A stretch of DNA of 45,176 nt from Lacrimispora amygdalina (lineage in GTDB: Bacteria > Bacillota > Clostridia > Lachnospirales > Lachnospiraceae). Both the position numbers and the translations under genes were made by a program. This document shows, piece by piece, positions 9,878 through 43,458 of this stretch (position 1 is its first letter; each line of letters starts with the position of its first letter). The notes under the pieces are model-generated. The model saw only the letters and a list, made by a program, of their open reading frames with translations, was not told the origin of the DNA and ran no database searches. The stretch lies in the NCBI RefSeq assembly GCF_003432035.1, contig NZ_QOHO01000086.1, forward strand, positions 1-45,176, given 5' to 3'.

Positions 9878-10279
9878 ATGAACTTTGGAGAAAAAGTGAG
9901 AAGCTTTAGAACCGAAAACGACTACACCCAGGACGAATTTGCAAAACTTATCGGCGTAAGCAAAAGAACGCTGCTTTTGTATGAGCAAGGGAAAAGATAC
10001 CCGAAGCAAAAGGAAGTCTATGAAAAAATAGCCGAGGTTATGGGCTGCGATTATAACTTTCTTATGACGGAGGAAGATGAATTTTTGGAAGAAGTTTCTA
10101 ACAGATACGGCACAACGGAAGTTGCAAAAGTCAGAGCTTTAGCCGAGGGAGTAAGCAGTATGTTTGCAGGCGGTACTTTACCCGAAGAAGATATGGAAGA
10201 AGCATTCCAGGCAATCACAAGAGCCTACTGGAAAGCAAAAGATATTAACAAGAAATATGGTAAGAAGAAAGATAAATAA
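9878..10279 (+). CDS. XRE-family repressor, ImmR-like
   Basis: A 133-residue protein with an N-terminal HTH_3 domain (about 6-60: TQDEFAKLIGVSKRTLLLYE, then GKRYPKQKEVYEKIAEVM) and a C-terminal part with AITRAYWKAKDINKKYGKKK. The gene before an ImmA-type protease, 9 bases apart, makes the ImmR role likely: in ICEBs1 ImmR represses the excision/transfer genes until ImmA cleaves it. AGGAGG is 7 bases before ATG 9878. Palindromic boxes around both nearby promoters suggest autorepression and control of the leftward operon. Confidence 0.85.
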   Translation: MNFGEKVRSFRTENDYTQDEFAKLIGVSKRTLLLYEQGKRYPKQKEVYEKIAEVMGCDYNFLMTEEDEFLEEVSNRYGTTEVAKVRALAEGVSSMFAGGTLPEEDMEEAFQAITRAYWKAKDINKKYGKKKDK

Positions 10280-10288
10280 AGGTGAGCT

Positions 10289-10849
10289 ATGACAAACGAT
10301 TGGATATACGAAAAAGCCAATGCTTTGGTCAGAAAGTATTTTACTCGTGATCCTTTTGAGCTTGCCAAAGACCTCAATATTCATCTTGAAGTAATGAACA
10401 ACATGACTCATCTTCTTGGAATGTATCAGGTCATACAGAAAAACCGTTTTATCTTTCTTTCCGCAGATTTACATCCAAGTATCAGGAAAGTTGTCTTAGC
10501 TCATGAGATTGGACACGACCAACTTCATAGAAATTACGCAAAGGCAAATGCCTTTCACGAGGTTTCTATCTTCAGAGAATTAGGTTGCCACGAAATAGAA
10601 GCAAATATTTTTGCGGCTCATCTTCTGATTAATGATAAAGAAATCATACGGCTTTTAGAAAATGAAGATGTATCGGATCGCTCTCTTGCTAATGAGCTGG
10701 GCGTGGAAATCAACCTTGTAAACTTGAAAATATCTGAGTTATACAAGATGGGCATACTTTCCTCTTCCAGATACAATATCGAAAGACCGAGAACAGAATT
10801 TCTGAAAGACTATAACCCCATAAGAGATAGAGATAATTCGACTTATTAA
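10289..10849 (+). CDS. ImmA/IrrE-type zinc metallopeptidase
   Basis: A 186-residue protein with the zinc site AHEIGH (His72, Glu73, His76) and the third ligand region HEIEANIFAAHLL (Glu104). ImmA/IrrE proteases cut the cognate XRE repressor to derepress a mobile element after DNA damage or cell signals. The ribosome site is AAAGGTGAG just upstream of ATG 10289, and the gene follows the XRE repressor by 9 bases. The last third (about 125-186) is family-typical and the length is normal. Partner and trigger are inferred from ICEBs1. Confidence 0.88.
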   Translation: MTNDWIYEKANALVRKYFTRDPFELAKDLNIHLEVMNNMTHLLGMYQVIQKNRFIFLSADLHPSIRKVVLAHEIGHDQLHRNYAKANAFHEVSIFRELGCHEIEANIFAAHLLINDKEIIRLLENEDVSDRSLANELGVEINLVNLKISELYKMGILSSSRYNIERPRTEFLKDYNPIRDRDNSTY

Positions 10850-12776: not shown

Positions 12777-12796
12777 CTATCACTTCATCTCTTTTT
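12761..12796 (+). terminator. Terminator between relaxase and CBASS genes
   Basis: AGAGATG (12761-12767) pairs with CATCTCT (12786-12792), with an inner GTGA/TCAC stem, followed by TTTTTG. It overlaps the relaxase stop and ends its transcript where the island genes converge. Confidence 0.6.
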
Positions 12797-13565
12797 GATT
12801 TGCATATATTAAATAACTATCCCTAATATCAATCCATTCCTTGCTTAAAGCATTGTTCAGATTGCAAAATAGCCTTTCAGAAAGAATGATTTTCGATTCA
12901 AATACGGCGTTTTCATAGAGTAGTAACACTTCTATTATTTGTGGTAAAATTACACTTGCTTTCGCTGAATGCTTTTCATATGAATTACATATTTCGTTTG
13001 CTTTCTCATACACATCTTCAGATGACTCTTTAAGAGAATTCAACATAATAGCTCTATCAAAAAAACTGCTGGATACTATAAAGCTTAGCAGTAATGATGA
13101 GTAATCATCCATCCCGCTAATAAAAAGTTTTAATACAAAGAATAAAAAAGCAACAACTGATAAAAGATAATATGGAAATGACATTTTAGCTGCTATACGA
13201 GATGTGAATAGGGAATTCTCGTGTATGTTCGCCAATAACTTTATTTCCTCTTTTGATATAGAAGCATTATTATAATAAGGTTCACTATTATAGTTTGGAA
13301 TTCTTTTTTCATTAAAACTATTATCAATAAGCCCCGTTTCTCTAATCCGATGCCCTTTATCAAAAAAAACATTTTTGTAATGTGATGACATATATTCGAC
13401 CACTAATACTACGCCTACTATAGAAAGAAAAATCTTAGCAGGTATAATCAATGTTACGCCCTGAAAAATAGCTAATGCAAATGCCAGCACACCGAAAACA
13501 TCTTGACCTATTGCAAATCTTTTTGAAATAATAAAATCTTTATTCTGAGGATTTTCTGCTGACAT
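12780..13565 (-). CDS. Predicted CBASS membrane effector (four TM segments)
   Basis: A 261-residue protein (264 from ATG 13574). Hydrophobic segments lie about 26-44, 47-62, 134-153 and 158-172 of the longer form, in two pairs around a soluble part. That part has a conserved-looking stretch (HRIRETGLIDNSF, then YYNN, then HENSLFTSRIA). The tail is helical. The place, last in an operon with a CD-NTase and an E2-like protein, makes a membrane-breaking effector very likely; I cannot assign it to S-4TM or another named class with certainty. ATG 13565 suits the GAAGG site better than ATG 13574. Its start overlaps the E2 end. Confidence 0.7.
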   Translation of the reverse strand: MSAENPQNKDFIISKRFAIGQDVFGVLAFALAIFQGVTLIIPAKIFLSIVGVVLVVEYMSSHYKNVFFDKGHRIRETGLIDNSFNEKRIPNYNSEPYYNNASISKEEIKLLANIHENSLFTSRIAAKMSFPYYLLSVVAFLFFVLKLFISGMDDYSSLLLSFIVSSSFFDRAIMLNSLKESSEDVYEKANEICNSYEKHSAKASVILPQIIEVLLLYENAVFESKIILSERLFCNLNNALSKEWIDIRDSYLIYANQKEMK

Positions 13566-14205
13566 TTTTACCATCCTTCGTTAATATCATATATGCTTCT
13601 GTTATAAATTCATTCTTATACGAAGCATTTTTTATAATAGGCAACATATATTTTCCGTGACAATCTCTAAGCTTTTTACCCGAACCGCAAAGACACGGAA
13701 TATGACCTCTATATTTGTCCTCATAAATCATAATTACCATCTTCTTGTATTGATCTTTGGTCAACTTCAAATCATTTAAATAATAATCTAGTAACCCTTT
13801 ATATCCGTGTTTTCTGTCACCAAATGGATAAGTATTGTATTTTTCAAACCAATCCAAGGTGTATATAAAAGCATTCACAAACTTCTTGATAAAAGCTATC
13901 AAAGACGGGTTTTCATTTAAAAAATATATCATTTCACCTATTGTAGCCAAACAAACATTACCATCCTGATAAATATGTTCTATATGTTCTGGATAATCAG
14001 ATACATAAAACTTTGGAATGCTATTGGGAAAGTTTTTTTGAACTATGAGCTTAATATTTCTTTCGCCTTGAGCAATATGTCCATCATAATCCAGGGAGTA
14101 TTTATATACCCCTTGGATTATCCACTCTATATCATTTTCAACCATTATTAATCTCGGCTGACTATCTAATATTTGTTTGACTTCATAACTCAATCCATAA
14201 CTCAT
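13540..14205 (-). CDS. E2-like protein of short type II CBASS with C-terminal SEC-C motif
   Basis: A 221-residue protein. Residues about 30-140 follow the bacterial E2-like fold: a FPNSIPKFYV strand, EHIEHIYQDGNVCLATIG with candidate active Cys85, and WFEKYNTYPFGDRKHGYKG. In type II CBASS the E2/Cap2 part conjugates the CD-NTase C-terminus to targets and primes its activity. Short type II systems have E2 without E1 or JAB, and neither is present here. A SEC-C zinc motif, CLCGSGKKLRDCHG (Cys171, Cys173, Cys182, His183), follows the E2 part. ATG 14205 begins one base past the CD-NTase stop. Confidence 0.82.
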   Translation of the reverse strand: MSYGLSYEVKQILDSQPRLIMVENDIEWIIQGVYKYSLDYDGHIAQGERNIKLIVQKNFPNSIPKFYVSDYPEHIEHIYQDGNVCLATIGEMIYFLNENPSLIAFIKKFVNAFIYTLDWFEKYNTYPFGDRKHGYKGLLDYYLNDLKLTKDQYKKMVIMIYEDKYRGHIPCLCGSGKKLRDCHGKYMLPIIKNASYKNEFITEAYMILTKDGKNVSRKSSE

Positions 14206-14206
14206 A

Positions 14207-15313
14207 CTACTTCTTCCAAGGTTTTGTAGGTGTAATTATTGTAGGCGTTTCAAAAGTTTCTGCAAATACTCTTGTGTTAATATCATTGTGAATACTTTGT
14301 TTGAATTTTCGTTCATCCTCAATATTCATAAAGTCGTTTAATGCCGAAATCCATTTACCCATATTACTCAGCCTATTATCTGTATATCGTTCAATAAGAT
14401 TTTCTCTTAAATCAACTGGATTTAATATTTTGCCATCCTGCATTAGAGATATAGTTTTATTACTAAATCCAACAATAAAAGCATTTACTATGTCTGAAAC
14501 CGATAAAAGCCATTCGTTTTTTATGCTGTCTGCAACTAAAGCTGAGATTAAAATTGACGATGGCTTGTCTCCCCTCAATTTGCTTCTGTCATAATAAATA
14601 TCTCTATGTCTCTTTATAAACTGGACAGCTCTTTGCAAACTTGATCTATAGTAGTAAGTTGGTATTTTCTCTGCACTTGCAAACACCATCCTTATGTCGT
14701 ATGGCAAATTATTGTATTGCTCTGATTTCATATCAGTACTTAAATGCTTATTACTAATTTCCAAAAACCAATCACCAAATCCGAGAGGATTACTGGTAAG
14801 CCAATCATAGTCAGATGATTCTTTATTTGTTATGGCAACAGTTTTCCGTGCATTTGAATACGAAACTCCCGAGTTAATAATGTCGTTCTTTATCGAAATA
14901 TCTTCGTCAACTGATGGGACAATATCCAAAGAAAATCCAACACCATCAGCTACTTCTGCATATTTTAGCGTCCAGCAATTTCTATCTTCTTTTTCTAACT
15001 TATCGGAATAAATTCCACTTTCTTTTATACAATTTCCAACATCATTTTTTACACTTTTTGCATTAGTGTCTTCCTTTTTTCTTTTCAATATCGCCAATAC
15101 ATCTAAATCATAATCATGTTCTTTACCATCACGGTATGGGCGTATCGTTGTACCTATCAAAAATGAACCCTGTGGATAAAAATCAGAATCCAAACCTTGT
15201 TCATCTAAGTATTTTGATAAGGCATCATACTTATCTCTAGCATTTTTCTCCATAGTTGGAGATAAATCCAAATCAGATAATGATTTCAATATATCTTTAT
15301 CTCTGTTCAACAT
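14207..15313 (-). CDS. CD-NTase (cGAS/DncV-like nucleotidyltransferase), CBASS sensor
   Basis: A 368-residue protein of the CD-NTase family. The nucleotidyltransferase core has QGSFLIGTTIRP (Gly49, Ser50) and DYDLDVL with Asp69 and Asp71; the third acid is Asp130 in FSLDIVP. On phage infection such enzymes make cyclic di- or trinucleotides which switch on the effector. The C-terminus is PTIITPTKPWKK, a flexible tail of the kind that E2/Cap2 proteins modify in type II systems. The ribosome site AGGAGG is 8 bases before ATG. It follows res by 46 bases with no terminator, so it may share the type III RM transcript. The product nucleotide cannot be read. Confidence 0.9.
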   Translation of the reverse strand: MLNRDKDILKSLSDLDLSPTMEKNARDKYDALSKYLDEQGLDSDFYPQGSFLIGTTIRPYRDGKEHDYDLDVLAILKRKKEDTNAKSVKNDVGNCIKESGIYSDKLEKEDRNCWTLKYAEVADGVGFSLDIVPSVDEDISIKNDIINSGVSYSNARKTVAITNKESSDYDWLTSNPLGFGDWFLEISNKHLSTDMKSEQYNNLPYDIRMVFASAEKIPTYYYRSSLQRAVQFIKRHRDIYYDRSKLRGDKPSSILISALVADSIKNEWLLSVSDIVNAFIVGFSNKTISLMQDGKILNPVDLRENLIERYTDNRLSNMGKWISALNDFMNIEDERKFKQSIHNDINTRVFAETFETPTIITPTKPWKK

Positions 15314-15359
15314 TTTTAATTCCTCCTAAAAATATATACATCATAGTGCAATTATTTCT

Positions 15360-17969
15360 TTATAATTTTACAATCCACTTATCAATCGCTTTTTCAAATT
15401 CCTCCATTCTATTATCATTATTAAAGAACGGGAATCCGATTATTTTATAATCATCTGCAAATAATCCTTTAACTGAATGCTCTTTTTCAATCTGCATTGA
15501 GAATGCTTCTTTCCAGGCATCCTGTTCCAAAAGTTGATTTCCTTTAGGCTCAACATATCCTTGGTAGGTGAGACTGCCTTCGTTTCTTTTCTTCCTTACA
15601 AATAGCAAAAAGTCAGGTTCAAATCGCTCTCCGGCTTCAAAAGAATATATAGCCAATTCAGGAATTCTTTCATTCCTAACAACATAGTATTCTAAATTCT
15701 TTTCCTTCAGCTTTGGCTCTATATTGGTTTTGAAATACTTTACAAAAAGCTTTTCTTCGCTCGTTCCGTAGTTGTCATTAAATACATACCAACTCTCATT
15801 CGTTAAGTCTAATCTGTATTCTTCATTTGAACAGTTGTTTTGAGAATTTCCTTTTCCACCGTTTCCTTCAATTGACCCTAAGCTGATTTTCTTGTCTTTC
15901 AAAATCACTTTAAGCTGCTTAGGTTCAAATTCTTTAGACCCTACATATTCAGGCTTGATAGCCATAACATGCGATGCAACTTTTACTAAGGCGTGCTTCA
16001 CAGCTGAAAATAAAATCTTTCCATTAACCTCATCTTGAAAATATGTTATTTCCACATTAGAGTTTCCAAGAAACTCATCTGAAGTTAAAAACTCCCTCAT
16101 TGATTTTAGAGATGGATATTTTTCTTTAAGTATGTCAAAACGAAGCTCCTCAAAGCATTCTATAGCCCCAAGCAAAATATTATAATCTATATCCTTGAAT
16201 TTAATACTCTTCAGATTTGTCTTAATGGTACTTGAGTTTGCAGTATCATCGCCTATAAGATTTACAATATTACCTTTGCCAGAAAGAGCTGTGTAGTAAT
16301 ATGTTTTTGTTCTCATACTCGGTTCAAGAGAATGTACTTCATCTCGTCCCTTCAACAATCTCTTATTAGAAAATACATAGCTCTTCTTATAAAAATCACT
16401 ATCCTTAAACTCATCTTTAAGTCTGTATTCCAAAATGATTGGATCAGGTGCCTGCAATCCTGTTTCTATAAGGGCATTCTTCAATTCTGATATATATCTG
16501 GAGTCGTTTTTACTGTGAAAATACATTGTTTCCAAAATACGATTAGGATTCGATATATCGCCATCAAATTTTCTTTTAAATTTAAGTTCCTCATCATCTA
16601 CAACGAATGGGCAATATCTCGCACCTCTTCCAATAAGCTGCGCTTCTTTAATTGTATAGCTTCCTATCTTTCCACCTGATTTACTTTGTCTTGTATCATA
16701 CAGACGGACTATATCAAAGAGGTTGAGTACATCCCATCCTTCGTTTAACATATCTACCGCAAAGATAAGTCTAATCGGATTATCAAGATCTTCCAGAGAA
16801 TTGACTAACAACTGATTTTCCTTGTTATTATCCGAAGAGCCATTCATTATTATCGAAGTATTTTCAGTAAATGCGGTCTTAATTGACTGCTCCAAAAGTT
16901 CCAAAGTATCATCCTTATCTTTAAAATAATTTATCGCTTCCGTCAATTTTTCAATTCCAACTAATTCTAAGTTCTGAATTTCGTAACTTGTCAACTCCTT
17001 TACTTTTTTAAAAAATTCATCATAGAAACTTTTTGACTCATCTATTTTTTGTGATTTAAGCATAACCACAGGCTTAATATTGAGTTTTAAGTCCGCAAAC
17101 AAAAACCTCCTGTACTCACTCATTACGAGAGCCATAAGTGTTCTTACCCATAAATCAGTATCTGTTGCGAAGTTCTGGAAGTCTTTTGTATATCCGCTTT
17201 CCCTAAAAGAAATAAGCGGATAGTTAAAGATGATTTTATCCTTATATTTCTGTAACACGTTTGCATCTTTTAAATCACAAGTAGCCGTGAATTCAAGCAT
17301 AATGCTATCTCTATTTCGTGATAAAGCATTTGTAACAGAGTATTCCCAGCTTTTGGCAGCTTCTTCTTCGTCTTTAGTAGGTTTCTTAGTTAGTGAATTG
17401 ATATGATGGCTCTCATCAGAAATAAAAACTACTTTATTATTCTCAAAGTCATCATAAGTCAGTGAATTTTCTTTCGCTTCACATAAGTCCATATGAAGTT
17501 TTTGCGTAGTAGTAAACAATATTTCGATATCATCATCCAAAATATTACCGCTAAAGTTTTCTACCCTTTTTATCTTGACCTTTTTTCCTAAGTACTCTAC
17601 AACATCATTGAATAGATACTTATTTGAAAGTGGATTGATAAAATTATCAATCGTCTTTTCAAGAACATTTGTCTGATTTACGAAGAATGAAAACTTCCTA
17701 TATCCCTTTGTATACAAGTACAATATCAGACCTGCCATAATGACAGTTTTACCACTACCTGTAGCCATATGAAAAAGAGTATGGACTTGCTTGTTTTTTC
17801 TTAATCCGTCATTATCAAAATATAAAGCAAAGTTTGTAAAAGCATCAATTTGATATTCTCTTAGAGAAATTCTCTTTGATAGTCCGCTTTTTATAATTTC
17901 AGGAAAGTCGACATTCATACCAACTTCTTTTGCGACATCTAATTTTTCGTATAAAAACTGTCCCGCCAT
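15360..17969 (-). CDS. res: Type III restriction endonuclease subunit Res
   Basis: An 869-residue SF2 helicase-nuclease. Walker A is MATGSGKT (about 68-75), motif II is DESHH, motif III FTATCD, and motif VI shows QLIGRGARYCPF. The C-terminal nuclease reads RFEPDFLLFV then YVEPKG, a PD-(D/E)xK site. Res cuts DNA when two unmodified sites are met by translocation/sliding, in complex with Mod. ATG 17969 has GGAGGT just upstream and follows the mod stop by one base; longer starts run into mod. Length and motifs look intact. Confidence 0.92.
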   Translation of the reverse strand: MAGQFLYEKLDVAKEVGMNVDFPEIIKSGLSKRISLREYQIDAFTNFALYFDNDGLRKNKQVHTLFHMATGSGKTVIMAGLILYLYTKGYRKFSFFVNQTNVLEKTIDNFINPLSNKYLFNDVVEYLGKKVKIKRVENFSGNILDDDIEILFTTTQKLHMDLCEAKENSLTYDDFENNKVVFISDESHHINSLTKKPTKDEEEAAKSWEYSVTNALSRNRDSIMLEFTATCDLKDANVLQKYKDKIIFNYPLISFRESGYTKDFQNFATDTDLWVRTLMALVMSEYRRFLFADLKLNIKPVVMLKSQKIDESKSFYDEFFKKVKELTSYEIQNLELVGIEKLTEAINYFKDKDDTLELLEQSIKTAFTENTSIIMNGSSDNNKENQLLVNSLEDLDNPIRLIFAVDMLNEGWDVLNLFDIVRLYDTRQSKSGGKIGSYTIKEAQLIGRGARYCPFVVDDEELKFKRKFDGDISNPNRILETMYFHSKNDSRYISELKNALIETGLQAPDPIILEYRLKDEFKDSDFYKKSYVFSNKRLLKGRDEVHSLEPSMRTKTYYYTALSGKGNIVNLIGDDTANSSTIKTNLKSIKFKDIDYNILLGAIECFEELRFDILKEKYPSLKSMREFLTSDEFLGNSNVEITYFQDEVNGKILFSAVKHALVKVASHVMAIKPEYVGSKEFEPKQLKVILKDKKISLGSIEGNGGKGNSQNNCSNEEYRLDLTNESWYVFNDNYGTSEEKLFVKYFKTNIEPKLKEKNLEYYVVRNERIPELAIYSFEAGERFEPDFLLFVRKKRNEGSLTYQGYVEPKGNQLLEQDAWKEAFSMQIEKEHSVKGLFADDYKIIGFPFFNNDNRMEEFEKAIDKWIVKL

Positions 17970-17970
17970 A

Positions 17971-19914
17971 TTAGACCTCCGCATAGAAAGATTTTGTGAA
18001 CGCCTTGTCCGACTCACTTATATCATAACTTTCATCGTCCATATCCGAGTAATTTACATAGAGTTTATTCTTATCGACTAAGCTGATAAGAGCTTTTTTC
18101 TTTTCTTGAAGTTCAAGTGAATTAAATTCTTCATCAGCTTTCTTAAGCTCTTCCCTTGTGATATATGGAACAATACGCTCATCAGCATATATTTCATTCT
18201 TTATTTCAGAGATTATTTCTTCTGAAGCTTCCTGAATCTTTTTAATGAGTGTACTTGCGTTTTCAAGAAGCTCGCAATAAACAAATGATCCTCCGCCTTG
18301 CCAATCGACAGATTTTGATATACCTCCTTGTTCTCCATCTATCACTTTTTTCATTCTTTCAACAGTAATATCCTCGATATAGTCCATTTGCTCAACACCT
18401 ATATATCTACGACCCATTTTATGAGCAACTGCACAGGTTGTTCCAGAACCTAAATGGAAGTCCATAATTAAGTCTCCTACCCCCGATGAAACATTGATAA
18501 TATTTGATATAAGTAGTTCTGGCTTAGGGTTGTCAAAAGCTTTATCATCATTTGTTATGTTGAATAATTTTCTTAACTCTTCTGTCGCATCTTGATTTTG
18601 CCCCCAATCAAGTAATAAATCAGTTATAGTCTTGCCTGATTTTTCCTCTTCTTCCGTTTTATATCTTCTAAAGGAATTGTTTGCAGTAATATAAAGTAAA
18701 TCTAAATCACAAAATTTAGTAATTTCTTCTTGTGAATTTCTATATTTAGCAATTGCTTCAAAATCATTTGTTACTCTACCATTTTTAATATAAACATCTT
18801 GTAAAAATTCAGTTGACATTGTTTTATTTTGGTAAATACCTTTCTTTATTACTGAATTTTTATCTCCCATATATCTTATGCCTGCTTTAATCTTCATTGA
18901 TACTGCTTTATTTGAAGCATTATCAATACGCTTAGTAGCATCACTTTGCGCTCCCATCTGTAATTTACCTACATTTTTTTGTTCTTTTGCATATACTAAA
19001 ACAGATTCCATAACTCCAGCTATCCTAGATAGAAATGAAGGCTGCTTTTTCTTTTTCCAGTGCAAATGACCAATAAAATTTTCTCTTCCAAACAATTCAT
19101 CCATTAGAATATTTAGATATGGCAAAGCTGATGTTCCTACAATACCATTGGCATTTTGTCTTGAAGAATCTATAGAAATAAAGATTAAACCATCTTTTGA
19201 TAATAATCTTTGAGCTAATTCAAGCCTATTTTTCATAAACGCTAGCCATGTAGAATAGGAGAATGAATCATTATAGCCAAAACTATCTGATCCTGTATTA
19301 TATGGTGGATCAATGTAAATGCACTTAACTTTGCCTTCGTATCGTTTTAGTAAGCTCGAAAGTGCAATCAAGTTATTCCCTTTGATAATCAAGTTGTCAT
19401 TCTCATTAAAAGTAATATTTTCTTCGACTCCATCTTTCGTATATCTCTTTGCGTTCGTAAACACTTTCGGAGCAAGCATTTTACTAATTTCATCACTTGC
19501 TATAGTCTCATTGTAGAAAATCTCTTTACGCTTCTGATCTTCCTTGTCCTGACCACCTTCAAGGACACAATCTTTATATGGAAAGTCTAATACCACATCA
19601 TTAGACTTTGAGATGAAGTCTCCGCCATTAGTTAATCCGATTTTATTTGTATATTTCGTATATGAGTCCGGTAAGAATTCCTTAGACTCAATAAACCAGG
19701 CAAATTTCTGCTTGTCAAAAACAAGTGTGCCGTTTACATTCTCAAAAAATCTTTCTTTGATTTTTTCATCAGATAAAAGTAAAGACAATAATTCTTTGTT
19801 CATAGTCATTACATCGCTATAAACAATCGCCTTGAGCAATTTACCATCATCAGAAATATATTTTGAATTTGTATTTAATACTTCCTCGACTATTTCAAAA
19901 ATATTTTTATTCAT
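17971..19914 (-). CDS. mod: Type III adenine-N6 methyltransferase Mod
   Basis: A 647-residue beta-class DNA methyltransferase: the catalytic DPPYNTGSD (near 200) comes before the SAM motif DFHLGSGTTCAVAHKMG (near 485). The region between holds the target recognition domain (about 260-430). Mod sets the target, methylates one strand and is needed by Res. GGAGG lies 8 bases before ATG 19914, and the stop of the upstream HTH gene touches the start (TAAATG), so a small regulator and mod-res are one coupled unit. N- and C-terminal parts look full. Confidence 0.93.
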   Translation of the reverse strand: MNKNIFEIVEEVLNTNSKYISDDGKLLKAIVYSDVMTMNKELLSLLLSDEKIKERFFENVNGTLVFDKQKFAWFIESKEFLPDSYTKYTNKIGLTNGGDFISKSNDVVLDFPYKDCVLEGGQDKEDQKRKEIFYNETIASDEISKMLAPKVFTNAKRYTKDGVEENITFNENDNLIIKGNNLIALSSLLKRYEGKVKCIYIDPPYNTGSDSFGYNDSFSYSTWLAFMKNRLELAQRLLSKDGLIFISIDSSRQNANGIVGTSALPYLNILMDELFGRENFIGHLHWKKKKQPSFLSRIAGVMESVLVYAKEQKNVGKLQMGAQSDATKRIDNASNKAVSMKIKAGIRYMGDKNSVIKKGIYQNKTMSTEFLQDVYIKNGRVTNDFEAIAKYRNSQEEITKFCDLDLLYITANNSFRRYKTEEEEKSGKTITDLLLDWGQNQDATEELRKLFNITNDDKAFDNPKPELLISNIINVSSGVGDLIMDFHLGSGTTCAVAHKMGRRYIGVEQMDYIEDITVERMKKVIDGEQGGISKSVDWQGGGSFVYCELLENASTLIKKIQEASEEIISEIKNEIYADERIVPYITREELKKADEEFNSLELQEKKKALISLVDKNKLYVNYSDMDDESYDISESDKAFTKSFYAEV

Positions 19915-21734: not shown

Positions 21735-24700
21735 TTATCGTTCATCGTGTTCTTTTGATTTTGTATCTTTTACTTCTTTTTCTTTCTGCTCTGACTGAAA
21801 TGACTTAATCTGCCCTAAGATAGATGGCTTTTCCTCCTTTGCGTGGAGATTATCTTCCACATCGTAGGTAGTCTCAAAGTAGTCGCTATCCCTAAAGTCA
21901 TTATCATACCTGTCAGGCACTCCATCATTATCCAAATCCTTTGCAAGCGGATCATAGAAATTGCCCTCATCATCAATTTCAAGTCCTAACACTTGCTTTA
22001 ATTCTTCCTCATCAACAGAAACAAATGCACTAAATTCGCCGTTTTCCATTTCAAACTTCATGCAATCAAGAGCCTTTTCTTCGCTGCCGTTTTCTTTTAC
22101 ATAATCGTAATGACTTATCTCTTTGCCGTTTACAAGCTGCGTAGCCGTAAAATCCTCAAGATTAAGTTCAAACTGTATCTCATGCTTTTCATCAGGTGTA
22201 TTCGTATAGGCAATGCCTATATGCTTTAAATCAGGGTATAGCGTATTAAATTCATCATATCTATGATTTTCTTCATACTCTCTGTTGCAGAAGTCAATAA
22301 TAGCTCTTTTCACATCTTCCACTAATGGATTTGGATTTTCTTTTTCTTCCACCTCTCCCATATCAAGGAGCTTATTTAATTCCGCCAGTCTTAATACCTT
22401 AGTTTTCAGTTCATCCGCCTTTTCAAAAGGCTTTTTTAATTCCTCTTTTGCATTTTCAAGCTGCTCTTTGGTACTAATGAGTTTTTCTTCAAGTCTCTTT
22501 AATTTTTCAGGCATTTTCTCAAGGGCATTATCAAGTCTTGTAATGTTACCGTCTGCACTTGTTCCAAGCTCTCCTACTGTTTTAGAAGCACCATTTAAGC
22601 TGAAATTATGCTCATTGGTAAAAAAGTTGTAGCTCACTTCCAAATCCATATTTCGGTACTTACCGATGACCTTGCTCTCATTTACTTTTACTGTCTTTAT
22701 GGTTTCAAGCAGCTTTTCGCCTGCTTCTTTTTTATCCGTTATCTTCACTCCGTTAATGATTATAGAAGTAAACTTGTTTTCTCCATCTCCTTGCGGTTCT
22801 ATGCTTGATATATCCTTTTTAACAGCTTCAATAAGTTTCTCAAGCTTTGCGATTTCATGAGGATAGGTTTTTGCAACCTTATCTTCCAAGCGATAGCGAT
22901 TTGACTTGTAATTGGCTTCAAGCATTTTAAGCTTCGTAACCTCATTATCCAAGTCCATTTTTTCTTTGATTTTCGGATCACCTGTTGCAAGGGCTTTAAT
23001 CTCCGCATAGTTAAGGGAACTTTCATCCACATCTTCCGCCACTCTGACAGGAGTCTTTGAAGTCATAATCTGAGAAATGAATTTTTGCTTATTCTCTATG
23101 GTCTGCCAAAGGTAAGCATCAAAGGTGTTCTCGGTAATGTAACGATAGATATTAACTTCTTTATTTTCATTTCCCTGACGGACAATTCTACCCGCACGCT
23201 GCTCAAGGTCTGCCGGTCTCCACGGCACATCCAAATCGTGCATTGCAATCAGCTTATTTTGCACATTAGTACCTGCTCCCATCTTTTGAGTCGAACCCAT
23301 TAAGATACGGATTTCTCCTTTTCTTACCTTTGCAAAAAGCTCATCCTTTTGCTTATCGGAATTAGCTTCATGGATAAAGGCGATTTCTTCTTTTGGTATT
23401 CCCATTGCCACAAGCTTATCCCTTATATCATCATAGATATTAAACTCTCCGTCTCCCTTTGGTGTAGACATATCCGAGAAAAGAAGCTGTGTAGATTTAT
23501 TCTCTTTTGTCTTATCCCAAATGGCAAAGACATTTTTCACGCAGACATTGACCTTGCTATCAGGATTATCAGGAAGCAAAGGATTGATTAAACGCTGATC
23601 TAAGGCAAGTTTCTTACCGTCATTGGTAATCTTCAGCATATTATCTTCTTCAGGCTCTACTTCCCTATTTCTGACCTTATCCGCTCTTTCAGACAAACCT
23701 TTTAATATCTCTTTTTGCTCATCACTCGGCATTGTCTTAACAACTTCATAGTGGGCTTCAGGTGTAGGAAGATTTAACATATCCGCGGTTTGAATATCTG
23801 CCACTTCCTTAAACATACTCATAAGCTCCGGAAGATTATAGAACTTAGAAAATCTTGTCTTTACTCTATATCCGGTTCCTTCAGGAGAAAGCTCAAATGC
23901 TGACTGTGTTTCTCCAAAGGTAGAAGCCCATGAGTCGAAATGCTCCAATCCATTTTTCTTAAGGTCTTCATACTGCAAGTATCTTTGCATAGTGTAAAGC
24001 TCCGTCATCGAGTTGCTGACAGGCGTTCCTGTGGCAAAGACGATACCTTTCCCGTTTGTCATCTCGTCCATATAACGGCACTTCATAAACATATCGGATG
24101 ACTTAAAGGCTTCGGATTGTCCAATGCCAGCTACATTTCTCATCTTCGTATAAAGATAAAGGTTCTTGTAATTATGGGCTTCGTCCACTATCAGCTTATC
24201 AACGCCAAGCTCTTCAAAGGTAATGACATCATCTTTCTTGAAATCATCATTTAGTTTTTCAAGCCTTGCCTCTAACTTCTTTCTTGTCTTTTGTAGCTCT
24301 TTAACTGTGAAATTCTGATTTCTGTCGTGCTTGTATTCTTCAACATAGTTAATGATTTCATCAATCTGATCCTGAATATGTTTTTGTTGATATTCTTTAC
24401 TCATCGGGATTTTTTCAAACTGACTATGCCCGATTATTACCGCATCATACTCGCCTGTTGCAATCTTTCCGATAAATCTTTTTCTGTTTTTTGGCTCAAA
24501 ATCTTTCTTATCAGCCACCATAATATTGGCGGACGGATAAAGCTGCATAAACTCTCTTCCGATTTGTCCAGTCAAGTGATTGGGAACAACAAATAAAGAC
24601 TTCGTACACATTCCAAGCCTTTTTGCTTCCATAGAGCTTGCTACCATTTCAAAAGTCTTGCCGGCACCTACCACATGAGCAAGAAGTGAATTTCCGCCAT

Positions 24701-27700
24701 AAAGAATTCTTGCAATAGCGTTTCTTTGATGTTCATATAGGTCAATTCCCTCGCCCATCCCCTCAAAGGTTAAATTACTGCCGTCATACTCACGGTTTCG
24801 GATTGAATTGAATTTCTCGTTATATACCTTTACAAGTCTGTTCCTTCGCTCCTGATCGTTAAATATCCAGTTCTTAAACTCTTCTTTCAGAAGCTCCTGT
24901 TTTTGTCCTGCAAGCATCGTTTCTTTTTTATTTAAGACCGATGTTTTAGAGCCGTCAGGATTTATTATCTGGTCAAATACCTTTGTTTCCTTTAAGTTTA
25001 GAGCATCTTCAATCAGCTTGTAGGCACTCACTCTTCCTGTACCATAAGTCATTTCAGCAAGGTCGTTGCCCCTATCTTTACTTTTCCCCTCAACATTCCA
25101 TTCACTTGTAAGATGAGAAAACTTAACCTTTATATCCCATCTTGCCCAGCCCGGTGTCTTTAAGGTTTCAAAGACAAATCGTTCAATATCCTTTGTAGGT
25201 ATCCAGGTAGCACCGAGTCTTACATTTATCTCGCTTGCTTCAAGTTCTTTCGGCATAACCTTTTGAAGCTCTGCCTTTTGAAATTCAAGGCGGTTTAATT
25301 CATTTGCAAGCAATTCCTTTTCATCCGTATTTTCATCCGGAAGCATTCTTTGTGCCTGGCTTAACCTTGCAATATAGCTATCCACAATACCTATCTTTTC
25401 TCTGATATTTCCGCTTAGATACTCATCTTTTGTTACATAGGCATACTTAAAGGAATTATTCTCATCACTACAGCTAAACGGCAAATCGCCGTCTTCAAGG
25501 TCAAATGAAAGTTTCTGATTAAACCTTGTATTCTCCTCTCGAATATTTAGGAAAATTTCTCCTCTAAGTTCCGAAATGATAGTGCTTCTGTCCTTATCCG
25601 TTAGACCTTGCATATATTCAAAGTCCACATATCCCTTTTGGGAAATGGAAAGCACCAAGGCTTCAAGTGAGGTATCCACATGGTCAATTACTCTTGCCTT
25701 TGTGATAGTACGCTTGGAGAAAATATCTCCCTTTGCCTTAAAGTTATCTTCCTCATCAAGTATCTCAATGGATGATACAAGAGGAAAATTACTGTCTTCT
25801 CTTAAAGCTCTTGTGTTTGAAAGGTTATTTACAAAGCCGTGCTTTTTAGAAAAGCTGTCATAGACCTCATTTAATTTCTCCTGAGAAGCCTTTATCTCTT
25901 CATCTGTAAAATCGTCCTTTTGGCTTTTGATAACATCTTTTAAGGCTTCATTCAGCTTGAGATAGTCCTTAATCTTTTCTTTGTTCTTATCCGACACCTC
26001 TTTTTTTATAAAGAGCGAGTTTTCCCTGTAATACACATCGTTATCAATAACGGTATAGGAAAAGTTTTTGACATCGTCCGTTGCCGGAATGGAAGTTATC
26101 TCATCATCAAGAAGCTCTATCTCCTCATACTTACTATATTTAGAGATTTCCTTACTTGCCTTTTCAAGGCTCTCTCTTAAATCGGTATTTTCTTTTGGAA
26201 GACAGGAAATAGTATTTCCAAATCGTCCCGATACTTCACGCATTGTGCCAAGCACCATTTCAGGATGCTCTACAAAGTATTTATTGTAGGTTAGCCCATT
26301 TTCATCTTCAGCTAAATGTACCCAGGGCTCATCACGCTCAAGAACGCTGTCTCTTTTCTTTAAGAAGATAATATCGCTTGTTACTTCTGTTCCTGCTACT
26401 CCCTTAAAAGTGTCGTTTGGAAGCCTGATTGCTCCTAAAAACTCAGCCCTTGCATTTATATATTTTCTGATGCTTTCATCTTTCTTATCCATTGTTCCGC
26501 TTGATGTGATAAAGGCGATAATACCGCCATTTCTAACCTTGTCGATGGATTTTGCAAAGAAATAGTCATGGATTAAGAAGTTATTTCGGTTATACTCTCT
26601 GTCATTAACCTTAAATTCTCCGAAAGGTACATTCCCGATTGCTACATCAAAGAAATTGTTGGAAAAGCTTGTTTCTTCAAATCCCTTTACCTGTATATCG
26701 CTATTGGGATAAAGAAGCTTTCCGATACGACCGCTGACAGAGTCAAGCTCAATTCCGTAAAACTTTGACTTACTCATTTCATCCGGAAGATTTCCGATAA
26801 AGTTTCCAACTCCCATACTCGGCTCTAAGATGTTGCCGCTGTTAAAGCCCATATCTGAAAGTGTCTTATATACGCCGTCAATAACTGTTTTAGGCGTAAA
26901 AAAGGCAGTTAAGGTTGACTCCTTAGCTGCTTCGTATTCTAAAGGTGATAGATTTTCTTTTAGGAATTTTCTTGCGGTCTCCCACTGACCGCCCTTTTCT
27001 TCATCGAATACTTCAGAAAGTCCGCCCCAGCCGACATATTTTGCTAATACTTCCTGTGCTGTATTGTCAAGCTCTCTCTCTCCCTTTTCAACTCTTTTTA
27101 GCATTGAGATGGCTTCCAGGTTATTGTTTAACCTTTCACTTGGTGTGAGCTTTTCAGGTAAAATCTCCTCTGTAATTTTGAAATTGGAAGCTTTCTCTTT
27201 TGGTTTATCCTCAAGTCCGAATAGTCTTTCCAAATCACTTTCAAGCCTATATGGGATAACCTCTGAGCCGGTCATCATACCACCTAAATATTCCGCATTA
27301 TCCTTTATGGTAATGGTCTTTAATCCACCGCCTATATCGTCAAATCTTGTTATGGTAAAGTCTTTATCTTTGTAATGGACTTCATCTCCAACAATAAGTT
27401 TCGGTCTTTCAAAACTTATCTTTCCCAAAAGCTCTTTTTCATTCACAAAGCTTACGATTGGCATTTGACGGTTGCCTTTCCTTACAGGATCAAGCCACAA
27501 ATCATTTTTGTCGATAATTTCGTTCTTGCTTACCTCGTGAATGATATAGGCTTCGTTCTTCATATAGACTGTTCTTCCAGGAGATAAATCCAATTTAGAC
27601 TCTGTAGCAGCTTCTTCCTTTTCTTCGCTTAGATATTCAAAAATATTTCCTTGAACGGCTTCTTGATTTTCTAATGCAATATCACTTTCTATCGCATAAT

Positions 27701-30056
27701 CATTTATCTTAAAAGCTTCATATTTGCCACTATCTATTAGCTTATCTACTTTTTGACTTTCCTCGAAACTGCTTCCACGATTAAGAGAGTATTCTTTTCC
27801 CTCAATAGCAACTTTTCTTCCTGTATCTTCAAGACTAATAGCAAAGCCGTCTTTTTTACTTGCAAGAATAAATTCATTTCCGACTTTAATTGCCACTTTC
27901 TCAAATTCGTTATCTGAAGCTATTTCTTTAAGGCTGTCCACAAATTCGCTCATCGTTACAAAGTCTATATTTTCCTTGAAGCTTTCAATCTGTTCTATAC
28001 TCACCTCATCATTTACAAGGTAGCCTTTAAGCACATTGAATTTCGCAATATCAATGTCAAGGTTTTTGAGATATTGTATCTTCTCTGCTGTAACACCGTC
28101 TTTACCTTTGTTCCAGTCATCAATCAGCCATTTTAACTGCTCCATTTTCCAAACAGGAAGATTGGGCTCGGCAATTTCAGTGATTTCATTACCATAAAAA
28201 TCATATTCTTTAATGGCACTTAAAATCTCATCTAACTGCTCATCATTAAAATCGCTGATGGAAATATTAGTGCCTTTAAGAGCTTCTTCAAGCTTACTTG
28301 TTGCAAGTCTGCTTACAGCTTCTTCTCTTGAAACCTCATATTCTTCCATAATTGAGATTGCTTCTTCAGCAAAATTAGGGCTTAATTCTTCTACATACTC
28401 ATCCGGTAATTCATTTTCTGATGCTTTATGAATTATATCTTCTTCAAAACTAAGCTCGCCGTTAAAGACCATCTGAAGCTCTTCTTCGCTCATCTGCTTT
28501 TTAAGCTCTGTGTCTTTAAGTTCCCTAAATGTTTTCGGGAAATCTTCTAAGATAAGTCTTTGTGCATTTAACTCCTTTAGCTCCTCAAGATTGAAATATC
28601 CCCATTCAGGTTCAATCCCAAGTACAAGTCCAAAGGCATCGCCACTTTCTCTATCGTATTCCGTCATATACCAGGTCCAATTACTTCTAAATGGAATGAT
28701 ATATGCAGCGTGTACTTCCTTATCGGCAAGGGAGATACTTTCCTGCTCATAAAGTTTCGGCACTCTTTCAAGCATTTCATCAGTCATCAGCACATCGGGA
28801 TTGTCTTTGGAATAGAAAAAGGAAGCATTTTCAGCTCCCTCTTGCATTTTTCCTATGCCGTTTTCTTCTACGCTTCGACTACTTCTTTGATTGTTATTTC
28901 TTTCAAGGCTGAAATCATCGCCTGATACTTTGGATCTTCCTCGCTTACTATATTCTGGGCTTTCAAGAGTTTCGGCTTCTCGTTCCTCATAAAGTTGATT
29001 GCTCTTTTCTGAATTTCCATTAAGTGAGATACCAGCTTCTTCTCTTTGTAAAGGTCGATTAGCATCTGATAGTTCGCTTCGTCCTTGCTCTCTGAAAGAT
29101 ACTCCAGTCTCATCACTGCGTAAGTCGGATTCGGAAATTCCTCCATAAAGATCTTCTCTTCTTCCAGGCTGCTTAGGGTCTTCTCCTTGATTATTGCTAC
29201 TATCTCGTCCGTATTCTCCACTCCCGAAAATTCGGTTTCTTTGCTCATCATTTCTTTCGTCATCTGATCGAATAACATTATCATTTCCTCCTAAATCATT
29301 TAATTTAATTTCATTATAATCGGCACTAAGGTTCTTTGTCAGGTCTCGATTTTTAGAAAAATTTCTTGTTCTTCTTCTTGTCTCCTCAATGATGTGGCTG
29401 CAAGCATTTGAAATACAAGTACCGACACTCATTAAAGATATGTTGTCGATAGACTTAAAATTTTCTCTTAAATTATCCATCGGAAACGGATAATCAATAT
29501 GAAATCTGTTTGAAACGGCATAAGCTACCGAATTTCTCATAAAGTTTGCAAATGAGTTTCTGTCTTCATCTGCAATTCTTAAATTGTTTGCAAGCTCGTA
29601 AATACTCTCATCAGCATATATTCGGCTCAAAGTATAAAGATTTTCAGTTAAACTATCGCTTGCCTCATATCCCTGCAAAGTAATCATGTCTTTTAAAGCT
29701 TCACCGTCATTTTCTTTATCAAAAGACCATAGCTTAACCTCGTTGACATTTCTGTCCATTGAAGTTGTCTGGCTGACATCGAAGATGTATCCGACCTTTT
29801 GAAATGCGTTACTGTTATTTAGGATTGGTATGCCCTTTTGCCCTCTCATAACAGTACGATTAAATCGTTCTCGCCATAAATCAAAGCTTGTGCAGGCTGT
29901 GGCATTCGGATTTTTATCATAGATACTTAATTGACTTAAAAAGTCGTATTTCTGATTGTTTCCGACAACCTTTAAGAGCTTCAGATATTCGCTTTCGCTA
30001 TCTAAAATATCTCTTTTTACAAGCTCCATAATATTGTAAAAATCGTTCGTTCTCAT
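21735..30056 (-). CDS. Giant SNF2-type helicase / N6-methylase-like mobile element protein
   Basis: A 2773-residue protein typical of Tn1549/CTn-type ICEs. In order: an ArdC-like N-terminal part (1-220), an unstructured Arg/Glu/Ser linker (230-420), a DUF2958-like domain (about 455-490), a methylase-like domain with EPSMGVGNF (near 1080) and GNVPFG (near 1140) in place of NPPY, an SF2/SNF2 helicase with VGAGKT (near 1797), VDEAHNYKN (near 1958), ATGTPVSNS (near 2008) and [10 protein letters not shown] (near 2287), and a tail with an EF-hand-like DLDNDG/DRYDND loop (near 2708). The degenerate NVPFG argues against normal methylation. It probably remodels or protects transferred DNA. A TnpV-like gene is embedded in another frame. 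Confidence 0.92.
21862..21958. repeat. Repeat copy A: EF-hand-like module in the helicase tail
   Basis: A 97-base stretch aligned without gaps to 36514-36610, with most bases equal, both in frame and encoding DPLxxDLDNDG, DRYDND and FRDSDYFE. It codes part of the C-terminus of the giant helicase. Confidence 0.85.
28868..29278 (-). CDS. TnpV-like protein embedded in the helicase gene (other frame)
   Basis: A 136-codon open frame on the same strand as the giant helicase gene but in a different frame, over its low-complexity linker. AGGAGG (29292-29287) is exactly 8 bases before ATG 29278. The protein reads [19 protein letters not shown], then [17 protein letters not shown] and [16 protein letters not shown], similar to TnpV of Tn4451-type elements, whose role is unclear. 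The intact frame and perfect ribosome site favour a true overlapping gene; the alternative is chance openness over a low-complexity linker. Confidence 0.6.
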
Positions 30057-42072: not shown

Positions 42073-43458
42073 TTATTTTTTTCCGCAACATTTCTTGTAC
42101 TTCAAACCACTACCACATGGACATTTTTCGTTTCTAGATATCTTTTTTGCAGACATATTATTAGCTGCCATATTACATTCTCTTAAGAGTTTGTTTTGTT
42201 CGTTTATTGATAACTCATTAAAATCAGGAGCACTTGAACCTATCACTCTAGCCGGACCAGTACTAGTAATGATATATCCAGGATCTCCCTCAACTTCAAT
42301 AAGAGAAAATTTACTTCCGCATCCTTTACAATAAATATTTGTTAAATCATGAGGTGGTTTCCAATGATTAGTGATTCCACACATACATGTTAAATCAATT
42401 ACTTCTTGTGAACCTATAAGACCTTGCCTTATAAAAAAATAATATTGATTATTTCTTGTTTTCAAATCTGTAGTTATCTTTGAAACGATAGAGGATATTG
42501 AATTTTGAAATTTCCCAAAAACACTAGGCTCTAATGATTTTTTTAATGAAGCCATAACAGATGGCAAGTATGTTTTCACAAAGAAGTTTGTTGCCGTTTC
42601 TAAAATTTCATATTTTAATTCGCTAAAATTTTCTGTACTTGGAAGATATGGACTAATATCATCACTAAAAATTACTTCTGGAGCATCTGAAGCTGTAAAA
42701 AAGGTTGAAACATATCCAATATGTGTGAACTCAGATGAAAATGCGAACAAGTTTTTGATTTCTTCTTTAAAATCAGTATCTAATGACAAATTTAAACTAT
42801 CAAATAAAAAATCAACTTTTTCACCAAAGCTTTTCTTGTCACACTTTGTAATGGAAGATTCTTGTCCTCTAACCCGCTTATTATATTCAAGATTTCCAAA
42901 TTCTGTTAAAGAGTTTTGAATAGCTGAATTAAAAAGGGCTTGTCTAATAGATTTTGTTGCATACCTATCAAAGCTGTATAAGGATGTAAGAACTTGAAAG
43001 TTCATTTCTTTTGCATCTAAAAGCACAAGTTGATAAGCATCTGCTACTAAAGAATCTATAAACTGGCGTGTTGATGTTACTAGGTTGTTATAGTCAATAA
43101 AATCCTTTTTTAATTTTCCTACAGTTTCAACTGTTATTCCAACTCTATCATCAGGTTGAGAATAATATGCAAATTTCTTTATTATATTAATGTCATTAAG
43201 CAAAATTCGGGGAATAATTGTTCTGAAATAATAAAATCCCTTGGAATCATCTTTAAAATCATCGGAAACATAACTATCATTTTTATATGCTACATCTAAC
43301 TGATTATATATATCCAACAAAGAACTCGATCCCCAAAGTAAAAGACTATTTACATACTTAATATTATTGCAAAGAACTTCATAATTATTTAAAGCGGCGG
43401 TAGATTTTCTTTCAGATAGATTATCTGCAATACTTTTTAAAACATCTATTTCGTTCAT
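42073..43458 (-). CDS. Unknown cargo protein with zinc ribbon and SEC-C end
   Basis: A 461-residue protein I do not recognise. About 1-345 are helical with no clear motif. Then comes a four-Cys ribbon (CMCGITNHW ... YCKGCG, about 361-384) and an end SEC-C motif (EKCPCGSGLKYKKCCG). SEC-C motifs occur in SecA and in many restriction, phage-defence and toxin-like proteins. AAGGAGG precedes ATG 43458. It and the DUF2513 gene lie between VirD4 and the rest of the T4SS genes, so they are likely cargo. A defence role is possible but unproven. Confidence 0.7.
   Translation of the reverse strand: MNEIDVLKSIADNLSERKSTAALNNYEVLCNNIKYVNSLLLWGSSSLLDIYNQLDVAYKNDSYVSDDFKDDSKGFYYFRTIIPRILLNDINIIKKFAYYSQPDDRVGITVETVGKLKKDFIDYNNLVTSTRQFIDSLVADAYQLVLLDAKEMNFQVLTSLYSFDRYATKSIRQALFNSAIQNSLTEFGNLEYNKRVRGQESSITKCDKKSFGEKVDFLFDSLNLSLDTDFKEEIKNLFAFSSEFTHIGYVSTFFTASDAPEVIFSDDISPYLPSTENFSELKYEILETATNFFVKTYLPSVMASLKKSLEPSVFGKFQNSISSIVSKITTDLKTRNNQYYFFIRQGLIGSQEVIDLTCMCGITNHWKPPHDLTNIYCKGCGSKFSLIEVEGDPGYIITSTGPARVIGSSAPDFNELSINEQNKLLRECNMAANNMSAKKISRNEKCPCGSGLKYKKCCGKK

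Follow-up and report, generated by a model that had tools for sequence, protein, structure and literature searches.

E2-class-specific C-terminal tails on CBASS and Pycsar cyclases suggest what a single E2 acts on

A 45,176-nucleotide stretch of Lacrimispora amygdalina DNA (contig NZ_QOHO01000086.1), which we refer to as the window, carries a three-gene CBASS operon in which an E2-like protein stands alone between a cyclase and a membrane effector. This raises the question of what a single E2 might act on when no E1 accompanies it. The three genes are intact and form one tight minus-strand operon, in which neighbours overlap or nearly abut, the start of the effector gene overlapping the end of the E2 gene. 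The features discussed below are as follows.

14207 to 15313, minus strand: CD-NTase (the CBASS cyclase), 368 aa, with PF18144 and PF21654 above their cut-offs (SMODS and DncV-like domains).
13540 to 14205, minus strand: E2-like protein with a C-terminal SEC-C knuckle, 221 aa, a class A E2 in our present naming.
12780 to 13574, minus strand: 4TM membrane effector, 264 aa, from PADLOC models PDLC00719/00726 and hydropathy.
14210 to 14224, minus strand: CD-NTase tail K364-P365-W366-K367-K368, the proposed site of E2 action, with W366 as the proposed attachment residue.
13951 to 13953, minus strand: Cys85, the predicted catalytic cysteine of the E2, present in 60/60 aligned class A E2s.
13651 to 13698, minus strand: SEC-C motif (C171, C173, C182, H183), PF02810 at 24.9 bits with a cut-off of 20.4.

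The identity of the operon as a short, E1-less type II-like CBASS is supported, and cyclic nucleotide signalling and phage protection are predicted for it. The active-site residues G49, S50, D69 and D71 of the CD-NTase are invariant in 41 aligned rows, the PADLOC 4TM effector match (5.5e-24) lies in the same operon as the cyclase, and a ribosome-binding-like AGGAGG can be seen by eye ahead of the CD-NTase (15322-15327). No match to ThiF or JAB was found among the neighbouring genes that were scanned. Nearby genes for a relaxase, for serine recombinases and for type IV secretion support an ICE setting, and a type III restriction-modification pair is found there as well. The first-pass annotation, which had described a CD-NTase, an E2 without E1 or JAB and a four-TM effector as a short CBASS carried on an ICE, is therefore borne out by the Pfam and PADLOC matches and by the surrounding genes. 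The restriction-modification pair (15360-19914, minus strand) lies immediately upstream of the three genes, which places two predicted defence systems next to each other. Other genes of the element encode a 2,773-aa protein that has parts of an Eco57I-type methylase and of a helicase (21735-30056, minus strand) and a 461-aa protein with a SEC-C motif at its extreme C-terminus, in which Pfam matched no further domain at E of 0.001 or below (42073-43458, minus strand). An HTH and IrrE-like peptidase pair with weak PADLOC CapH/CapP matches lies near the operon (9878-10849, plus strand), and IrrE-like genes near CBASS were also seen on four plasmids.

The PADLOC E2 model PDLC00865 covers the E2-like protein over nearly its full length, and a profile of its relatives matches a solved ubiquitin-conjugating enzyme (2.2e-6). 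The first-pass annotation had named structure prediction as a check on the E2 fold, and the confident predicted model (pLDDT 91), which resembles UEV/E2 domains and the Serratia CBASS E2, supports such a fold. H77 and H133 are conserved to the same extent as C85 (60/60 class A E2s). Since no match to PF14457 was listed for the protein at E up to 10 (HMMER filters drop most matches above 0.1), we filed it through the PADLOC E2 models and not through the 2020 definition of type II (short) CBASS, which rests on that Pfam family as quoted in a passage of PMC8568899. A passage of the same article describes CdnG-Cap5 operons whose third gene is "without a Pfam number." Using PDLC00865 as a genome probe for E2s was dropped, as it matched 197 of 200 genomes; outside this locus, the matches listed fall on the second half of PDLC00865 and chiefly on its SEC-C part. 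Relatives of the E2 had no match in a phage collection, and none was confirmed in viral contigs. A relative is carried on a Ligilactobacillus salivarius plasmid (L082).

Is the SEC-C knuckle what sets this E2 apart? The earlier suggestion that an E2-SEC-C fusion may be an undescribed subtype is not supported as put, since the last 62 residues of the E2 alone match C-terminal positions of six PADLOC-DB 2023 models, and we ruled out SEC-C as the novelty. The CBASS E2 families PDLC00865, 00870, 00871, 00872, 00861 and 00833 of PADLOC-DB 2.0.0 cover the SEC-C part of this protein as well as its E2 core, but their entries make no mention of a cyclase tail or of Pycsar partners. The knuckle is general in class A: among 60 intact E2s (leaving out L049, L105 and L028, where the E2 is broken or cut), most of them from loci fetched via the E2 with patterns that include SEC-C, C171 is kept in 60, C173 in 58, C182 in 59 and H183 in 54. 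The plain motif is found in 54, the form CPCGC-x(5-6)-C in three, CPxC...C[HC] in two and a degenerate form in one (L106). Our literature search found no paper joining CBASS with SEC-C, and the matches listed for SEC-C and ubiquitin included none on a bacterial E2-SEC-C by title.

A second class of short E2s, which we call class B, was met through cyclase searches. These proteins are 129-170 aa long and have no SEC-C knuckle (0/18), so that the notion of SEC-C as standard in all short E2s stands for class A, with 54 plain and five variant motifs in 60, and falls for class B. The Serratia CdnG-E2 system of Yan et al. 2024 reportedly consists of a cyclase and a single E2 with no E1, and 8hsb, 8yjy and 9kkb are structures of this Serratia marcescens system. 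The Serratia E2 (8hsb_B, 162 aa) groups with class B, matching the E2 of locus L173 at 5.4e-40; because the class B match runs to residue 151 and leaves only 11 residues, there is no room for a SEC-C. With the class A profile A1 (built on 27 of 53 E2 matches; A2 was built on 46 of 53 plus 41 of 50 loci), the Serratia E2 was absent from the 25 PDB sequences matched at E up to 1. As judged by profiles, the two classes are not wholly separate: at E 1e-3 a single class A E2 (L015, 5.6e-5), which is not that of this operon, was picked from the set by the class B profile, and the class A profile in turn gives weak matches to some class B E2s (L155, 1.2e-8). In a structural alignment, class A and the Serratia E2 share 9% identity and are thus far apart, so carrying the Serratia chemistry over to class A is an analogy.

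The first-pass annotation was right to ask whether the end of the CD-NTase is conjugated. What accompanies the class of the E2 is the C-terminus of its partner cyclase, a feature absent from that annotation: the CD-NTase carries an E2-class-specific tail. The cyclase here ends in ...ITPTKPWKK. At least 90% of the rows in an alignment of 25 retain P365 and W366, as they do the active site; in an alignment of 41 homologues this level is reached by K364, P365 and W366. We tabulated 114 cyclases, with partners assigned automatically. A strict [KR]P[WYF] motif in the last 22 aa is found in 55 of the 63 cyclases beside an E2-SEC-C (51/59 CD-NTases and 4/4 PycC) and in 0/51 others (0/18 beside class B, 0/14 beside Cap2 and 0/19 with no E2). 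Of the eight misses, seven are near variants reading KHW (two) or xPW (five), the last being L049, whose ORFs look frame-broken by eye. As a background, the motif occurs in 11/891 other ORFs of 150 aa or more and in 2/95 E2/Cap2 partners. When CD-NTase homologues were scored on residues 1-340 only, i.e., without the tail, 112 among the 120 listed of 276 had [KR]P[WYF] in their last 20 aa; the other eight had QPW (two), KHW, KLW or KAW (three) or none of these (three, two of them much shorter).

Cyclases beside class B E2s have a different tail, [NH]x[FY][FYWHG][GY], in 16/18 cases, both misses reading PHKN[YF]GG. It is found in 1/19 cyclases with no E2 and in none of the rest. That one exception, L187, was counted as having no E2, but the ORF next to its cyclase looks by eye like a broken class B E2. 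In L201:3476-7044, where two CD-NTases share an operon with a single class B E2, only the cyclase adjoining the E2 carries the tail, so proximity to an E2 need not make a cyclase its substrate. Several choices define these counts. The motifs were set once the first loci had been seen and were later broadened (W to W/Y/F, and the B motif after the B loci), so only later sets test them. Of the plasmid cyclases (124 and 122 records), 17 were fetched, picked for diversity before their tails were known. The 14 Cap2 partners were recognised by a ThiF match in Pfam (ten), by annotation (three) or by profile (L177). The table covers loci whose cyclase ORF is at least 250 aa long, thus omitting L008, L013, L034, L042/L093/L169, L045, L050, L051 and L084, and also omits same-place duplicates, the SEC-C matches L053-L081 and the weak PycC matches L129-L150, of which L129 and L130 were examined.

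Across the 114 cyclases, tail and E2 class are associated with a Fisher's test value of 2.9e-24, which ignores relatedness. The tail could then be shared descent of the cyclases only, with no link to the E2, as near relatives have both tail and E2 class in common. Since Fisher's test does not address kinship, we used a tree of 99 CD-NTases built without their last 25 residues, a quick tree with several long branches that left out L049, the near-copies L010 and L016 and the PycC. On this tree the E2 class changes 21 times and the tail 20 times. For E2-SEC-C versus tail, eight independent pairs lie on well-supported (starred) branches and 8/8 go in the same direction (p 0.0078). The relaxed tail label had at first been given only to rows with an E2, and the repeat used one rule for all rows; with the strict label, 200 pairings gave eight agreeing pairs in 141 and seven in 59, and never the opposite direction. 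For class B there were four independent pairs, too few to test. E2 class and tail therefore switch together on the CD-NTase tree (7-8 of 8 pairs, none opposite), and the same tails also occur on PycC, as described below, which makes shared descent alone a very improbable explanation.

How might the tail be used? In Cap2-type CBASS, an E2-type domain acts on the cyclase C-terminus. Type II CBASS with Cap2 (E1-E2) and Cap3 (JAB), also the subject of PMC10097602, resembles the present system in that an E2-type domain acts on the cyclase, according to PMC11153139, but it has an E1 and a JAB, and its cyclases have either tail in 0/14 cases (ends such as GRLG, PKGFA, EGRFA and SSSGME). The Serratia CdnG-E2 system likewise pairs a cyclase with a single E2, and its cyclase is conjugated near its C-terminus according to the review PMC12135389. 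It differs in that its 162-aa E2 has no SEC-C and in that the tail expected for its cyclase, from the relative L173, is [NH]x[FY][FYWHG][GY] and not [KR]P[WYF]. A table row of that review, citing Yan et al. 2024, gives Y405 as the conjugated cyclase residue in prokaryotic cGASylation by E2. The Serratia CdnG has 407 aa in the PDB, and the L173 cyclase, which is 46% identical to it, has 416 aa and ends in ...NRF-Y414-G-D, so Y405 would coincide with the aromatic residue in the class B motif, provided that both end in the same register. By analogy with Y405, we infer that W366 is the attachment residue here.

We therefore propose the following sequence of events for this operon. Upon phage infection, the CD-NTase would make a cyclic nucleotide that causes the 4TM effector to open or assemble in the membrane. 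E2-SEC-C would regulate the cyclase without any E1, by binding its C-terminal [KR]P[WYF]-x(1-9) tail. Cys85 would attack the peptide bond after the tail aromatic (W366), with the last residues KK leaving, and this cut of the residues beyond W366 would supply the activation otherwise brought by an E1. The cyclase, held as a thioester on the E2, would then be handed on to a lysine, either in another cyclase or in another protein, and thereby be switched on. Binding, cleavage site, thioester, ligation, activation and effector action are all proposed steps, as would be any role of the SEC-C knuckle, which might read the tail, hold the target or simply maintain the fold. That this short type II-like CBASS works in this way, with E2-SEC-C cutting after and conjugating through W366 to activate a cyclase whose tail is the code, we consider probable, a view tempered by the weak overlap of the two E2 profiles and by the assumed register of the Serratia cyclase end.

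Two other uses of the tail deserve attention. The correspondence between tail and E2 class would also be expected if the tail were a mere docking peptide, bound non-covalently, by which E2-SEC-C keeps hold of the cyclase, for instance in an inhibited state or near a target, with no covalent bond through the tail. The best structural neighbours of the E2 model are UEV domains of the TSG101 type, which are not known to be catalytic, and several of these have been solved with bound short peptides such as PTAP (3obu, 4zny and others). A pure binder would, however, have no need of C85, H77 and H133, which are present in 60/60 class A E2s, and the review row mentioned above puts the conjugated residue of a prokaryotic cyclase near its end, so we regard docking as unlikely. 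Less likely still is that E2-SEC-C is mainly a protease trimming the tail, the trimmed cyclase being the active form and ligation irrelevant. This would fit the presence of residues to be removed beyond the aromatic (1-9 in all 55 strict class A loci, 2 or more in the homologue sets), but the E2 fold, when it has an invariant Cys, is that of a transferase. Cutting followed by conjugation through W366 is the reading that we prefer.

The same tails are found on cyclases of another fold. In a Chryseobacterium plasmid, a Pycsar effector, a PycC and an E2-SEC-C form one apparent operon (L089:2362-4480). PycC is a class III nucleotide cyclase, with a fold unrelated to that of CD-NTase, and here it ends in ...NRPWLKRS. 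Further PycC-E2-SEC-C loci are L097, L098 and L102, and PycC stands beside a class B E2 at L123 and L125. PDLC00767 matches at L089 (2.6e-116), L097 (3.7e-135), L098 (1.2e-105) and the place of L102 (4.7e-154), and a 2TM/PycTM effector was tested for, and found, at L089 only. PycC beside E2-SEC-C has the A tail in 4/4 cases and PycC beside a class B E2 the B tail in 2/2, while PycC without an E2 has either tail in 0/6 (three on plasmids and three in genomes). The E2-SEC-C type was present in 11 of 395 genomes from the class to which a Flavobacterium record belongs; the partner cyclases, three of them PycC, have [KR]P[WYF] in 11/11 (the L093 cyclase and the L105 E2 carry an internal stop). When PycC homologues were scored on residues 1-300, without the tail, the strict motif was present in 109 among the 120 listed of 435, the other 11 all reading xPY.

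That a signalling enzyme of unrelated fold also bears the motif suggests that the E2 acts on the tail itself. The tail would then be a specificity code, and the E2-plus-tail pair a module that moves between cyclases, those of Pycsar included. We lean, by a modest degree, toward a general form of this idea, in which E1-free modules come in two kinds, E2-SEC-C reading [KR]P[WYF]-x(n) and the Serratia type reading [NH]x[FY][FYWHG][GY], each cutting near and conjugating through the aromatic, and have been transferred between two unrelated superfamilies of cyclases, bringing Pycsar as well under the control of ubiquitin-like conjugation. Ubiquitin-like control of Pycsar, which this reading predicts, had no mention in titles or abstract openings among the literature matches listed. 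SEC-C in CBASS E2s was known already; new here, within the literature searched, are the E2-class-specific cyclase tails, for which we found no description, although both tails may already be published and the claim of novelty is limited accordingly. The sole match on KPW or a C-terminal tryptophan was the structure paper of Vibrio cholerae CdnG (9WOO), a solved cyclase that ends in SSDPKPWFK plus one residue; in the text of that paper (PMC12804361), "E2 enzyme" appears once, in a reference, and the passages found do not deal with the tail.

These findings 1) reduce the role of a single E2 in CBASS to a direct test of a five-residue tail, 2) offer the tail motifs as a sequence rule predicting E2 substrates in other operons, and 3) suggest how an unrelated enzyme can be placed under the control of an E2, namely by acquiring a short tail. 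As a side observation, the label E1-E2 of PDLC00833 looks odd, since this model of 222 positions gives a near full-length match to the E2-SEC-C proteins of the Pycsar operons.
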